Below, piece by piece: positions 5,137 to 60,297 of a stretch of DNA of 64,000 bases. This DNA is from an uncultured Parabacteroides sp. (lineage in GTDB: Bacteria > Bacteroidota > Bacteroidia > Bacteroidales > Tannerellaceae), in assembly GCA_949295065.1 (NCBI GenBank), contig CASFJQ010000001.1, positions 186,001-250,000 of the forward strand. The letters are read 5' to 3'. Position 1 is the first letter of the stretch, and every line of letters begins with the position of its first letter. A program made the translations under genes and the position numbers. A model generated the notes under the pieces. The model was not told where the DNA came from and did not search any database. It was given only the letters and a program-made list of their open reading frames with translations.

Positions 5137-5148
5137 AGATGAGGGAAA

Positions 5149-5260
5149 GGAGTTAAGTAGTTAAGAAGTAGAGGAGTTAAGTAGCCAAGGAGTTTTATTT
5201 TCTTGTTTCCTTGTCAACTTGTTAACTCGTCAACTTGAACCTTCGTTATCTCGTCAACTT
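5149..5260. repeat. Octamer-repeat hairpin 1 (queG / deacetylase junction)
   Basis: The left arm (5149-5192) repeats gGAGTTAAgtaGTTAAGAA-like units; the right arm (5202-5260) reads in steps of 8: CTTGTTTC, CTTGTCAA, CTTGTTAA, CTCGTCAA, and so on. The right arm overlaps the last codons of the deacetylase, whose final residues KLTR and stop codon are made from repeat sequence. Confidence 0.75.
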
Positions 5261-5867: not shown

Positions 5868-6018
5868 AATTGAAAGTTGAAAATTGAAAATTGAAAAGTT
5901 AAGGAGTTAAGAAGGCAAGGAGTCAAGAAGTCAAGAAGTTAAGGAGTCAAGAATAAATAGAATGTTGATTTTTTTACTTAACTACTTAACTACTTAACTA
6001 CTTGACTCCTCTACTCCT
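5868..6018. repeat. Octamer-repeat hairpin 2
   Basis: Between the DUF2723 gene stop and the deacetylase start. Left arm (5897-5953) in exact 8-bp steps: GTTAAGGA, GTTAAGAA, GGCAAGGA, GTCAAGAA, GTCAAGAA, GTTAAGGA, GTCAAGAA. Right arm (5974-6018): ACTTAACT three times, then ACTTGACT and CCTCTACTCC. A TTGAAAA tandem lies at 5868-5897. The arms can pair to a long imperfect hairpin. Confidence 0.85.
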
Positions 6019-14189: not shown

Positions 14190-14294
14190 TGTCTTATTAA
14201 GGAAATTTTTCAGTAATAAATATCGTTTTTCTATTTTATGTTAGTTTTTGATATATAGAGTTGGCATTCTGATGTTTTTTGTTTCTCAAAATTC

Positions 14295-14397
14295 CATATA
14301 TTATGAAAAAGTTTTTCCATATATTGTGGAATTTTATTTTCATATATTGTGAAATTTTATTTTCATATATTGTGAAATTTTTGTTTCATATATTATG
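14295..14397. repeat. Palindrome array A: five CATATATT(A/G)TG cores at exactly 23-bp period
   Basis: Cores start at 14295, 14318, 14341, 14364 and 14387. The full unit is about TTyCATATATTrTGrAA with an A/T-rich spacer. It lies in the divergent 565-bp space between pckA and the collagen-motif lipoprotein gene. No gene is seen in this space apart from the pckA promoter (14162-14189), this array, and the lipoprotein -7 box (14592-14599). Confidence 0.9.
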
Positions 14398-14591
14398 AAA
14401 AAACTTTTCCATGCAGCTGAAAAATGCTGAAAATGCAAATAGTTGATTATGTGATGATTATTAAAATATCTTTTATCGCTGCTTCCTTTATTTTGCGAAT
14501 AAGAAAGGTTTTATGCATGTGACTTGAACTTATTGTTGACATTTTTTGGTTTAAGCTTACCATTTATAAATAAAATAACGGGATAAAATTT

Positions 14592-18770: not shown

Positions 18771-18907
18771 GAGAAGTTAAGGAGTCAAGAAGTCAAGGAG
18801 TTAAGTAGTGGAGTAGAATATATTCTTAATTTAATTCCTTGTCCCCTTGTTAACTCGTTAACTCGTTCCCTTGTCAACTTATAAACTCAAAAACTTAAAA
18901 ACTCAAA
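18771..18907. repeat. Octamer-repeat hairpin 3 (before purD)
   Basis: The left arm reads GTTAAGGA, GTCAAGAA, GTCAAGGA, GTTAAGTA; the right arm reads CCTTGTCC, CCTTGTTA, ACTCGTTA, ACTCGTTC, CCTTGTCA, ACTTATAA, ACTCAAAA, ACTTAAAA, ACTCAAAA. The right arm ends at the purD start codon and is open in the purD frame, so gene callers may extend purD into it. Confidence 0.85.
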
Positions 18908-18909
18908 AT

Positions 18910-26005: not shown

Positions 26006-26131
26006 GTTTCGCAAGTTGCTCAACTGAAAGCAGACAAGGCTTCAGGAACAAGTTGATAAGGAAATAATCAGAAAAAACTTGTCAACTAGTTTTCTTGTCA
26101 ACTTGTTAACTGAAAACCGAGCTTGCTAAAC
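26006..26131. repeat. Octamer-repeat hairpin 4, GCAAGTTGCTCAACT subtype
   Basis: Left arm begins GTTTCGCAAGTTGCTCAACT and contains GACAAGGCTTCAGGAACAAG; the right arm contains CTTGTCAA, CTAGTTTT, CTTGTCAA, CTTGTTAA in 8-bp steps and ends GAGCTTGCTAAAC, pairing with the left end. Same subtype as 47213-47374 and 47522-47640. Lies just before the fumarase gene. Confidence 0.8.
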
Positions 26132-38860: not shown

Positions 38861-39170
38861 CTTTTCCCTATCCGTCTTTATTGTAATATATTTTGCTTTA
38901 ATATTGACCGGACACGGCGAAAAACCGTAATTATACTTTCTTTAATAACGTATAATAGTTTGATTCAATGTATAAAAAATACAGATTGGATATTATAAAA
39001 ACATCGGCTCACCTAGGTGGTTCAATCAATCCACCTAGGTGAGCCAATCAATCTACCTAGGTGAGCCGATTGAACCACCTAGGTGAATCGAAAAAAAGAA
39101 TTAGATTTTCGTCATTAGTTTTAACTATGAAAACAAGATATCAATTAATAGTTCCAATCTTATTTCTTAT
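38861..39170. other. Convergent spacer holding palindrome array B
   Basis: No gene seen between the greA-HIT terminator and the end of the MATE gene. The only structure is the four-copy CACCTAGGTG array at 39010-39085. Confidence 0.7.
39010..39085. repeat. Palindrome array B: four CACCTAGGTG cores at exactly 22-bp period
   Basis: Cores start at 39010, 39032, 39054 (first base T) and 39076. The 12-bp spacers are GTTCAATCAATC, AGCCAATCAATC and AGCCGATTGAAC. Neighbouring cores also form larger inverted repeats: GGCTCACCTAGGTGG (39006-39020) pairs with CCACCTAGGTGAGCC (39031-39045). Confidence 0.92.
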
Positions 39171-45924: not shown

Positions 45925-47139
45925 TCAGAACATAAAAGAAGTTGAAGCAACAAATCTATGGTTTGTGACAGTGTGAGTATGAGTTATTCTTCCTCTTTGG
46001 TCTGCCTCGCCGAACCATGCTGTTGAAGGTGAATACTCGATGCCGAATTTCCAATGAGGCAATACGTATGCACCGTAAACATTGAATGAAAGCAGCTGGC
46101 CAACTTCAAGTCCTACTCCATATTGGTCTATAATATCTTTTCCTGCTCCCAGGTTTTTCATATATCCGGCAAAGAAACCTTGTCTCCATTTCGAGCCGTG
46201 TACAATATTAATCCATGTTGAAGTCTGTCTGAAAGGAGAGTACTTCTGTTCTCCTGTCTTTTCATCACGTTCAGTCACACCTATTCCGCTCAACATACAA
46301 ATATGCGATAAGTTAGAGCCATAAATAGTTTTTGCCGACATTGTCCAGTCGTTGACGATATATTTCAGATGAGCTTCAACTGCTCCTGATGTCACTCTTT
46401 CGTTTACTTTATAAATTTCTCCATTGACATTACACTGTGTTTGGGGAACAAGAGACAACATCTGCGCTCCAATTCCGGCAGTGAAATTATCTGAAGTGAA
46501 ATCTATCGAGCCATATAGCTCCGGAATGCAGCTATGCTTGATATAGGACTCACTTTTGCCGTGCGGTCCCATAGATAGAAATTGCAATTGCCACAAGGCA
46601 GCGCCGGTAAGTTGGATTTTTCCAGTATTGAATTTATATCTTATTTGCGGAGCACGGCAGAAACCGTTGAATGGAGCTCCTGTTGATAGATTTATCATTA
46701 ATGGATAAATATCTCCGAAAAGAGGATGCCATGTTTGTCCTATTAGCAAAGATGATTTAGTCCAGTCGAGTTTCAGATAAGCATGGCGTATACGGAGTAA
46801 AGTAAAATTACTTCCATATCCTCGAAAATCTGTTTCAATTTTTGCTGAAGTCTTTATTTTCCCAATTGACGGTCCGTTTATATCAACTCCTAATCTAGTA
46901 TATAAAAGATAAAAGCTGCCATTGCTTTGGTCGTTCAAATCCTTACCATTAGCATCATAATTATGATTTAAAGGATAAAGGTGAAACAAACCATCAACTA
47001 TTTCAGAATTAGCTCTTGAGTTGTAGAATAAGTCTCCTCTTACCTGCCCGTAGAATTTATATGAGAAATTATCCTTTTGTGAGTAACAAGTAAGGGATAG
47101 TAAGCTTAAAAAAACTGTCAAAAGAGATTTTGTATTCAT
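45925..47139 (-). CDS. Outer membrane beta-barrel porin-like protein
   Basis: A 404-residue protein with signal MNTKSLLTVFLSLLSLTCYSQ. The rest is alternating beta-strand sequence (FYGQVRGDLFYNSR, LLYTRLGVDINGP, KTSAKIETDFRG, RHAYLKLDWTKSSLLIGQTWHPLFGD) typical of a 16- to 18-stranded barrel, and it ends in Phe (FVASTSFMF), the outer membrane insertion signal. It resembles the DcaP/phosphate-type porin group of Bacteroidota but the solute is not known. Monocistronic. Confidence 0.8.
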   Translation of the reverse strand: MNTKSLLTVFLSLLSLTCYSQKDNFSYKFYGQVRGDLFYNSRANSEIVDGLFHLYPLNHNYDANGKDLNDQSNGSFYLLYTRLGVDINGPSIGKIKTSAKIETDFRGYGSNFTLLRIRHAYLKLDWTKSSLLIGQTWHPLFGDIYPLMINLSTGAPFNGFCRAPQIRYKFNTGKIQLTGAALWQLQFLSMGPHGKSESYIKHSCIPELYGSIDFTSDNFTAGIGAQMLSLVPQTQCNVNGEIYKVNERVTSGAVEAHLKYIVNDWTMSAKTIYGSNLSHICMLSGIGVTERDEKTGEQKYSPFRQTSTWINIVHGSKWRQGFFAGYMKNLGAGKDIIDQYGVGLEVGQLLSFNVYGAYVLPHWKFGIEYSPSTAWFGEADQRGRITHTHTVTNHRFVASTSFMF

Positions 47140-47212: not shown

Positions 47213-47374
47213 TTTAAGTATCGCAAGTTGCTCAACTTAAAAGTAAATAAAGCTTCAGATACAAGTAAACAAGGTCTGAATATCTGTAATTTCACGAATT
47301 ACTATCTAAAAATCTTGTTAACTTGCCTTTTGTCAACTTGTTATCTGTAAGTTGAGCTTGCGAAACTTGGAACA
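47213..47374. repeat. Octamer-repeat hairpin 6, GCAAGTTGCTCAACT subtype
   Basis: Starts TCGCAAGTTGCTCAACTT and ends AAGTTGAGCTTGCGAAACTT, so the outer arms pair; inner right arm CTTGTTAA, CTTGCCTT, TTGTCAAC in 8-bp steps. Confidence 0.8.
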
Positions 47375-47433
47375 ATAGTCTATGCGTAATATAGTAATAT
47401 TTATGGGAGCAAACTATATATACTAACTTCGTC

Positions 47434-47509
47434 ACAACTGTGATTTGATTTCGCCACATTTGTGACTTAATTAAATCACAAGTGTGACCTAATTTCGCCA
47501 CAGCTGTGG
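47434..47509. repeat. Palindrome array C: four CACAnnTGTG cores at exactly 22-bp period
   Basis: Cores CACAACTGTG, CACATTTGTG, CACAAGTGTG and CACAGCTGTG start at 47434, 47456, 47478 and 47500. The fourth sits in a perfect 20-base palindrome, TTCGCCACAGCTGTGGCGAA (47495-47514). TTCGC or TTCGT precedes three of the four cores. Confidence 0.92.
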
Positions 47510-47521
47510 CGAAGATAATAT

Positions 47522-47640
47522 GTTTAAGTTTAGCAAATAGCTTAACTTAAAAGTAAACAAGGCTTCAGGGACAAGTTTACAAGGTTAAAAACATCTGTAA
47601 CTTTAAAATTAGGCTATAAAACTTTATAAACTTAGTTTGT
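47522..47640. repeat. Octamer-repeat hairpin 7 (decayed)
   Basis: GTTTAAGTTTAGCAAATAGC...AACTTAAAAGTAAACAAGGCTTCAGGGACAAG aligns with the left part of the element at 47213, and AAACTTTATAAACTTAGTTTGTGCGAA with its right end. Confidence 0.65.
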
Positions 47641-47691: not shown

Positions 47692-48381
47692 ATGAAACAG
47701 TTACCAATCAGTAAATGGGCCGAAGATGACAGACCACGTGAGAAAATGCTGCAACAAGGAGCTTCAGCGTTGACAAATGCCGAGTTGCTGGGAATTCTGT
47801 TGGGCTCAGGAAATTCAGAAGAAACGGCTGTAGGCTTGGCGCAGCGTATCCTTTCATCTTACAACAATAATCTTAATGAACTTGGAAAGAAAACGCCTCA
47901 GGATTTGGAAAAAGAATTCAAGGGCGTTGGTCCTGCAAAAGCTGTAACCGTCCTTGCGGCAATTGAATTGGGCAGACGCCGTGCGAAGGAGGAAATCCCA
48001 ATCAGAACACGTATTACATGCAGCCGTGATATTTACGAAACACTTCATCCGCAACTTGCTGATTTGGCGCACGAGGAATTTTGGGTTATTTATCTGAACC
48101 GGGCAAATAAAATTATCGAGCAGAAAAAGATAGGTCAGGGCGGAACGGGTGAGGTGGTTGCTGATATAATGCTCATATTGCGTACGGCTCTTATGGTTCT
48201 TTCCCCGGCAATTGTGGTGGTTCATAATCATCCTTCGGGAAATTGCAAACCCAGCAGACAGGACGATTTGCTGACAGGAAGAATAAAGGAGGCTTGCCGG
48301 AGTTTGAATATTCAGATGCTTGACCATGTTATTGTTTCGGACGGGCAATATTACAGTTATGCAGATGAAGGGCGTTTGTGA
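47692..48381 (+). CDS. radC: RadC/JAB-domain protein
   Basis: A 229-residue protein with an N-terminal HhH-like region (LTNAELLGILLGSG, KEFKGVGPAKAVTVLAAIELGRR) and a C-terminal JAB1/MPN metalloprotease-like domain with the metal site VVVHNHPSGNCKPSRQD (about 176-192). The name comes from an old, now doubtful, link to DNA repair; the true role is unknown. It begins a three-gene set with a DUF59 protein and lpxH. Confidence 0.95.
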   Translation: MKQLPISKWAEDDRPREKMLQQGASALTNAELLGILLGSGNSEETAVGLAQRILSSYNNNLNELGKKTPQDLEKEFKGVGPAKAVTVLAAIELGRRRAKEEIPIRTRITCSRDIYETLHPQLADLAHEEFWVIYLNRANKIIEQKKIGQGGTGEVVADIMLILRTALMVLSPAIVVVHNHPSGNCKPSRQDDLLTGRIKEACRSLNIQMLDHVIVSDGQYYSYADEGRL

Positions 48382-58789: not shown

Positions 58790-58902
58790 CGCTTTTATTT
58801 TGTGTTAAACATCCGGGAATAAAAATAGCCCCAACCGGTGTCAGGGCTATCCAAACACGAATCCTTTGTGTTTAGTGTAAGCTGTGAGGATCCGATATTC
58901 TA

Positions 58903-58980
58903 GTTAATTAGTTGACAAGTTAACAAGTTGACAAGAAACATTTATGAAAACCTTGTCAACTTGTTCCCTCGTTACCTTGT
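58903..58980. repeat. Octamer-repeat hairpin 8 (at the ackA stop)
   Basis: Left arm GTTAATTA, GTTGACAA, GTTAACAA, GTTGACAA in exact 8-bp steps; right arm CCTTGTCA, ACTTGTTC, CCTCGTTA, CCTTGTTT. The right arm abuts the ackA stop codon, so the hairpin could act as its terminator. Confidence 0.88.
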
Positions 58981-60183: not shown

Positions 60184-60216
60184 GTTTATTGAGTTTATTA
60201 GTTGTAAATTTTAATA

Positions 60217-60297
60217 GTTGACAAGTTGACGAGTTAACAAGGGAACAAGATATTAATCTTTTATTTCTAAAACCTTGTCAACTTGTTCCCCTGTATC
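60217..60297. repeat. Octamer-repeat hairpin 9 (between pta and ackA)
   Basis: GTTGACAA, GTTGACGA, GTTAACAA, GGGAACAA (60217-60248) face CCTTGTCA, ACTTGTTC, CCCTGTAT. The hairpin lies within the predicted pta-ackA transcript and may alter the ratio of the two products. Confidence 0.88.

Follow-up and report, generated by a model that had tools for sequence, protein, structure and literature searches.

Four copies of the palindrome CACANNTGTG follow one another at intervals of exactly 22 bp in the window, by which we mean the whole 64-kb stretch of DNA analyzed here, and a second array in the same window (array B) has another core at the same period and in the same copy number. What kind of element keeps its geometry while its sequence changes? 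The initial annotation, which had correctly seen what the two arrays share, proposed a class defined by geometry, made up either of binding arrays of different regulators or of products of a mechanism that makes 22-bp repeats. The array near radC and its surroundings contain the following features.

47433..47508, no strand: family A array, window copy; four CACANNTGTG cores and three 12-bp linkers, period 22 bp
47427..47432, no strand: left outer half-linker; by sequence, the half-site pattern goes on beyond core 1
47509..47514, no strand: right outer half-linker, outside core 4 (by sequence)
45925..47139, minus strand: gene for a 404-aa protein, called a porin in the initial annotation; start 294 bp left of the array
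47692..48381, plus strand: radC, confirmed by Pfam; start 183 bp right of the array
47213..47275, no strand: left copy of a 63-bp direct repeat, 83% identical to 47523-47585
47523..47585, no strand: right copy of the 63-bp direct repeat, partner of 47213-47275

The cores occupy positions 47433-47442, 47455-47464, 47477-47486, and 47499-47508. These coordinates bear out the exact 22-bp period described earlier and place each core start one position below the values then given (47434, 47456, 47478, and 47500). The central bases AC, TT, AG, and GC are as described; the outer CACA/TGTG is invariant within the window array but not in its sister arrays, where CACG.. and ..CGTG occur. Core 4 and its flanks form a near-perfect palindrome. 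A single CACANNTGTG core was matched five times in the window, compared to a mean of 0.89 in shuffled sequences, and none of 100 shuffles reached five. The array lies in the 552-bp gap between the divergent 404-aa gene (minus strand) and radC (plus strand); Pfam supports the name radC, and the 404-aa protein called a porin had no Pfam match at E 0.01. The 63-bp direct repeat on either side is a piece of a separate dispersed intergenic repeat, distinct from the array, with pieces of up to ~190 bp that are 74-90% identical. This repeat is also present in loci L124, L125, L126, L129, and L130, near arrays or elsewhere in these loci. Clusters of octamer-type 8/16-bp repeats (AGTTAACAAGTTGACA-like) occur in the window at 5147-5237, 5896-6007, 18772-18908, 26076-26111, 58902-58935, and 60216-60241.

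Two further arrays in the window introduce two more families.

39010..39085, no strand: family B array (array B); four CACCTAGGTG-type cores at 22 bp
14292..14402, no strand: third dispersed family (family C), CATATATTRTG core, 23-bp period; related in form only

When the source genome (G000; 2.80 Mb in 70 contigs, 87% complete) was searched for two CACANNTGTG cores 22 bp apart, 11 matches per strand were obtained at six loci, and a reversed-pattern control gave none. Each of these six family A loci has four cores, counting one or two deviating ones. Array B is one of 17 family B loci (CACCTAGGTG, up to two mismatches), which contain four cores in 14 cases, three in two, and five in one. A single oriented element, in which the three linkers are distinct, describes the 14 four-core copies, and the linker differences are mostly transitions. 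Family C is also present in L123 from position 564 and has 28 loci in G000 by our count (up to three mismatches). Exact family A pairs were also present in 12 of the 34 other genomes that make up the genus sample, but in none of 24 genomes at a greater distance; exact CACNNNNGTG triplets at 22 bp occurred in only 6 of the 393 genomes of the order sample. Across 331 kb, a non-random sample consisting of the window and 20 stretches picked around arrays, palindromic arrays at 22 bp exceeded those at all other periods from 14 to 40. Other periods were used for this comparison because a reversed palindrome is again a palindrome, which makes reversed sequence invalid as a control for palindromic arrays.

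The arrays are symmetric about their linkers as well as their cores. A second dyad lies at the middle of the linker, 11 bp from the core center, and the repeating unit is an 11-bp half-site in alternating orientation, present eight times in a four-core array. The majority letters of the half-site are NTGTG-R-Y-N-W-R-A in family A (6 loci) and AGGTG-R-N-Y-Y-R-A in family B (14 of the 17 loci). Positions +6 and +10 are purines in 48/48 half-sites of family A and 112/112 of family B, with both purines occurring. The 12-bp linkers are also constrained: every family A half-site has a purine adjoining the core.

A comparison of the genes beside 36 arrays of several genomes revealed a few shared families. 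The only family adjacent to arrays in three genomes (G000, G241, and G387) was a protein of ~200 aa, identified by Pfam as HU-HIG (PF18291; E 4.6e-37 to 1.6e-19). In G000, its array-adjacent genes are on contig C5, beside a family A array, and on contig C8, beside a family B array; no HU-HIG gene was found on the window contig (C1). A survey of HU/IHF clades published in 2017 reportedly proposed the HU-HIG family. PF18291 proteins contain an HU domain, and their C-terminal part gives only sub-threshold matches to helix-turn-helix domains. An AlphaFold model built from 34 aligned sequences (pLDDT 88, pTM 0.59) predicts an HU fold and, at the C terminus, a domain with three helices and two strands. 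We interpret this domain as a winged helix whose third helix spans residues 167-179. Foldseek matched the model, mainly in its HU part, to a putative DNA-binding protein of Bacteroides vulgatus (4fmr) and to HU/IHF structures. In both G000 and G241, an array lies between the HU-HIG gene and homologous genes, of which the G000 member is VapE-like by Pfam; thus, the two arrays probably represent one locus in two genera. Relatives of the VapE-like gene of L184 were detected by BLAST beside HU-HIG in eight of 30 loci (L184, L186, L189, L192, L195, L197, L207, and L209), on the upstream side in seven. These neighbors recall the replication modules of mobile elements. Our literature search, mostly confined to journals outside subscription, found nothing that links HU-HIG to a target site or to such arrays, which is weak evidence of novelty.

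We scanned the DNA upstream of HU-HIG genes for such arrays, which we call home arrays. We counted as a hit any series of at least three palindromes with a 22-bp period and a score of 1.30 or higher, a threshold set after a first look at the data. The first set combined 30 HU-HIG loci from 118 genomes of the bacterial family (the best match of 30 genomes) with 40 further genes, taken in list order except for two already included and four skipped near the end. Three of these 70 genes (L187, L258, and L287) were dropped for having <300 bp of upstream sequence, and L196 and L199 were dropped by a locus-length rule although both show an array. Of the remaining 65, 49 had an array at 22 bp and 16 fell below threshold, whereas any other period from 14 to 34 gave at most 4/65. 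The DNA upstream of radC, examined at 26 of 29 loci (three with short flanks were left out), contained no array at 22 bp, with 5 hits at 18 bp and 2 at 14 bp that represent other repeats. Block-shuffled upstream DNA reached threshold in 2/325 cases. The home arrays contained four copies by scan in 24 cases, three in 23, and five in 2. The distance from array start to start codon ranged from 109 to 286 bp, bar one hit at -578 (L203) that is probably spurious.

In a second set, from nine genomes searched for PF18291, an array was present at 12 of 17 genes of at least 195 aa. Four of these genes repeat the first set (L221, L225, L226, and L236), leaving 9/13, and L242 had too little upstream sequence. 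Shorter HU-HIG genes, which by their length lack the winged helix, had an array in 2/12 cases. One of these short genes, encoding 162 aa (L246, G005:C85), is preceded by a 24-bp CCATGCATGG array, so the arrays of the short branch may follow a different geometry. In a third set, 9/20 genes reached threshold and the best period was 22 bp in only 6/20, with 21 bp in four, 23 bp in two, and 24 bp in one. Taken together, 62 of 98 HU-HIG genes of winged-helix size (47/65, 9/13, and 6/20) have an upstream array whose best period among 14-34 is exactly 22 bp, compared to 0/26 for radC; the bare threshold gives 67/98. Four loci counted in this test (L184, L193, L211, and L231) had been seen beside an array beforehand. 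Home-array sequences differ between paralogues, of which related bacteria have many, and are alike among close relatives.

Among 58 gene-array pairs, arginine 172 (numbered as in the C5 protein) occurred with 18 of 19 arrays with GTG half-sites and 7 of 39 others (Fisher 1.7e-8). As this residue and base +5 were picked by eye from a mutual-information scan, the p value for the first set is post hoc. In that scan, the mean score did not single out the recognition helix (0.76 versus 0.84 for an N-terminal stretch). R172 falls inside the predicted recognition helix and ranked first of 502 residue indicators for a GTG half-site; threonine 169, in the same helix, ranked second. None of 5000 simulations on the HU-domain tree reached the R172 signal (highest 0.72 versus 0.73). 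In ten held-out gene-array pairs, the association was 3/3 versus 1/7 (p 0.033). Arginine-guanine pairs are a common contact.

We also compared the dispersed families with 59 home arrays. For six of seven families (G000 A, G000 B, G002, G007, G067, and G241), the home array of the same genome ranked first, narrowly for G241 (0.70 versus 0.69). G067 belongs to another bacterial family. The window array alone was most similar to the home array at G000:C5 (0.77 versus 0.64 for the next), and pooled family B to the one at G000:C8. In this test, L203 was dropped, family B was used without two of its 16 non-home loci (L131 and L132, with other copy numbers), G002 was represented by 19 of 26 pair matches with its home array among the seven left out, and G007, G067, G241, and G294 by one or two loci each. 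In G294, no home array matches the dispersed CACTSSAGTG arrays: the single one present ranks 40. Of the other HU-HIG genes of winged-helix size in this genome, one has only 202 bp of upstream sequence and two showed no array. In G000, no cognate HU-HIG gene was found for the 23-bp family C; the third HU-HIG gene of winged-helix size (L217, C15) is close to the end of its contig, and no array was seen in the ~200 bp available upstream. In L094, L097, L102, and L103 (G005, G026, G024, and G009), CACAACTGTG cores recur 3 to 7 times with a 22-bp period; these arrays matched no HU-HIG home array and may be another class. A prospective search with another home array of G241 as the pattern (up to three mismatches) found nine further loci, with none in the reversed control. 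The same kind of search in G436, a genome assembled as a single contig, recovered the home copy and no dispersed ones. Home arrays seem to be the rule and dispersal optional. By Mantel test, array similarity correlated with that of the winged helix (rho 0.28) and of the HU domain (rho 0.35; each 0/1000 permutations); since it tracks the HU domain at least as well as the winged helix, it may in part reflect relatedness.

The initial annotation had suggested orthologous spacers as a way to distinguish its two readings. At the radC locus, the nearest RadC of the same genus is only 63% identical, and 80 RadC loci of other Bacteroidota were left out as too distant to serve as orthologous spacers. 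Three orthologous home arrays were informative: the proteins are 85-90% identical, and the upstream neighbors are not alignable. Spacing is kept without insertions or deletions and 23 of 24 CAC/GTG half-site bases are invariant, compared to 6/16 in core centers, 27/36 in linkers, and 111/254 in flanks. As half-sites are kept while core centers drift, the copies do not change in concert; constraint acts site by site and not by concerted copying. A mechanism that makes 22-bp repeats is thus weakly supported, by the gain or loss of one unit in duplicated loci (five cores in one and four in the other of L132 and L134). The other reading, binding arrays of different regulators, is strongly supported at the level of sequence, provided that all the regulators belong, as paralogues, to the winged-helix HU-HIG proteins; this common origin would explain why the geometry is shared and the sequence free. 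Arrays also lie within duplicated segments at L122/L135 and L127/L130. For L127/L130, homology was found only in the right flank, where it starts immediately after the last core, an arrangement that resembles a recombination junction at the array.

Which account best fits the window array? Most likely, judging from these comparisons of sequences, it is a dispersed copy of the cognate array of the HU-HIG protein encoded at G000:C5:50940-51542, which would combine an HU/IHF-type bending domain with a winged helix. The recognition unit would be the 11-bp half-site (GTG, a purine, and an AT-centered half-linker), eight of which alternate in orientation. In this arrangement, a dyad falls every 11 bp and a dyad of the same kind every 22 bp, on the same side of the double helix. 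Half-sites would be read by the winged helix, for which R172 touching the G of GTG is the leading candidate contact, and the ~90 bp would be bent or wrapped by the HU domains, probably acting as four dimers. The protein's own gene is preceded by the home copy, a position that makes autoregulation at the home site likely. With a half-site private to each paralogue of one protein family, arrays would come out alike in geometry and different in sequence. In some genomes, the home array would have spread to intergenic sites, of which the window array would be one.

One alternative is that the arrays are MITE- or REP-like mobile repeats, elements of ~100 bp with inverted ends moved by a transposase, with the palindromes serving as transposase or structural features and the link to HU-HIG being incidental. 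Such an element would fit the single oriented consensus of 14 of the 17 family B copies, the inverted ends of many copies (AAAATATCG / CGATATTTT), and the location of the loci: none of the 23 family A and B loci is inside a predicted ORF of at least 100 aa (two touch an ORF end), whereas 91% of random windows overlap one. There is also a precedent in BrickBuilt of Porphyromonas gingivalis, a MITE with 23-nt repeats (PMC4596501). However, the inverted ends largely coincide with the outer half-linkers, the single-contig genome has a home array without dispersed copies, and the same geometry recurs with differing sequences before most HU-HIG genes. We consider a mobile repeat of this kind improbable.

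That the window array is an operator array for radC and the divergent gene, bound by an unrelated transcription factor such as a CRP-like protein with TGTG/CACA half-sites, is very improbable. In favor of an operator, the genes on either side of the window array diverge, with their starts 183 bp and 294 bp away, but some sister arrays lie between convergent genes. Moreover, the flanking genes of the 23 loci are oriented in tandem at 10, divergently at 9, and convergently at 2, with 2 at an edge, close to the values for random intergenic placement (11.9, 7.1, 2.6, and 1.4). Ten Pfam-annotated genes, out of the many that flank these loci, showed no common theme.

A structured RNA or bidirectional terminator, in which the long imperfect inverted repeat folds when transcribed, is a reading to which we give almost no weight. 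The window array folds far better than shuffled sequences (z -6.5 and -8.7 for the two strands), but any tandem palindrome folds well. We dropped this reading because linkers 1 and 3 of 14 family B arrays, which would pair in such a structure, did not covary (117 of 168 cells paired, versus 120 in shuffles). Scarcely credible is a neutral satellite arising by replication slippage that happens to favor two helical turns: although L132 and L134 differ by one 22-bp unit and constant-size repeats are known in bacteria (PMC8161180), the arrays mostly have four cores (6/6 in family A and 14/17 in family B), their half-sites are strictly conserved while their centers are free, and they are associated with one gene family.

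If the window array is a dispersed copy of an HU-HIG cognate array, what are such copies for? Since their orientations resemble random intergenic placement and ten of their flanking genes share no theme that we can see, we think that they are not simply operators. Our first guess is that they are extra anchor points of a nucleoid-organizing complex; both selfish copies of the home array and such additional anchor sites would fit. A bolder and doubtful possibility is that the winged-helix HU-HIG proteins form a large class of private chromatin systems, in which every paralogue has an 88-bp array of eight half-sites to itself and wraps it into a discrete nucleosome-like particle. Dispersed arrays would then form a genome-wide network of particles in some genomes, and changes in the helix arginine and its neighbors would cause specificity to diverge, yielding many non-cross-reacting systems per genome. 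If true, this would account for part of the long-puzzling bacterial repeats of constant size and variable sequence. These proteins may be a set of histone-like proteins that are orthogonal to one another and have sequence-specific anchor sites; HU itself is not known to have such sites. The predicted protein-DNA code is directly testable on dozens of naturally paired winged helices and arrays, for which one contact is predicted.

The arrays resemble several known systems. In iteron arrays of plasmid origins and other tandem operators, direct repeats of ~22 bp precede the gene of the binding protein, and autoregulation is plausible there. The present arrays differ in having palindromic units, an HU-type protein, and dispersed copies, with no evidence of replication. 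BrickBuilt is a minisatellite MITE with 23-nt repeats at 19 intergenic loci (PMC4596501). Its repeats, like ours, span about two helical turns and are intergenic, but they number 1 to 22.8, with a leader, a tail, and IS5-type ends. When the flanks of the 23 loci were read by eye against the BrickBuilt end sequences given there, IS5-type terminal inverted repeats were absent. The shortest member, BrickBuilt_14 (84 nt), adjoins PGN_0872, annotated in that source as a PF00216 DNA-binding protein; we suggest that PGN_0872 may be an HU-HIG protein with its home array.

Another parallel is the two-turn repeats of Subirana and Messeguer, which occur across bacteria with constant size and variable sequence (PMC8161180; earlier, PMC6749651). 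Like these, the present arrays are non-coding, 20-23 nt in period, constant in size, and private to species in sequence, with several families per genome. Judged by the criteria for those repeats (non-coding, 20-23 nt, at least four copies, and several families of similar length per genome), and not with the authors' detection program, our arrays qualify. Subirana and Messeguer considered a protein that needs a constant repeat size, or small RNAs (PMC8161180); the accessible part names no cognate protein and discusses Hfq in connection with RNA. The window array consists of tandem palindromes at 22 bp and best matches the home array of its own genome, which places it in a class of HU-HIG cognate arrays (21-23 bp, mostly 22 bp) with putative binding. 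This class would connect an unexplained kind of bacterial DNA, repeats with a fixed length but no fixed sequence, to a protein family that has a name but an obscure function. For it, and for Bacteroidota only, we give a gene family, a home array, and a candidate contact; its palindromic half-sites and four-core unit are specific.
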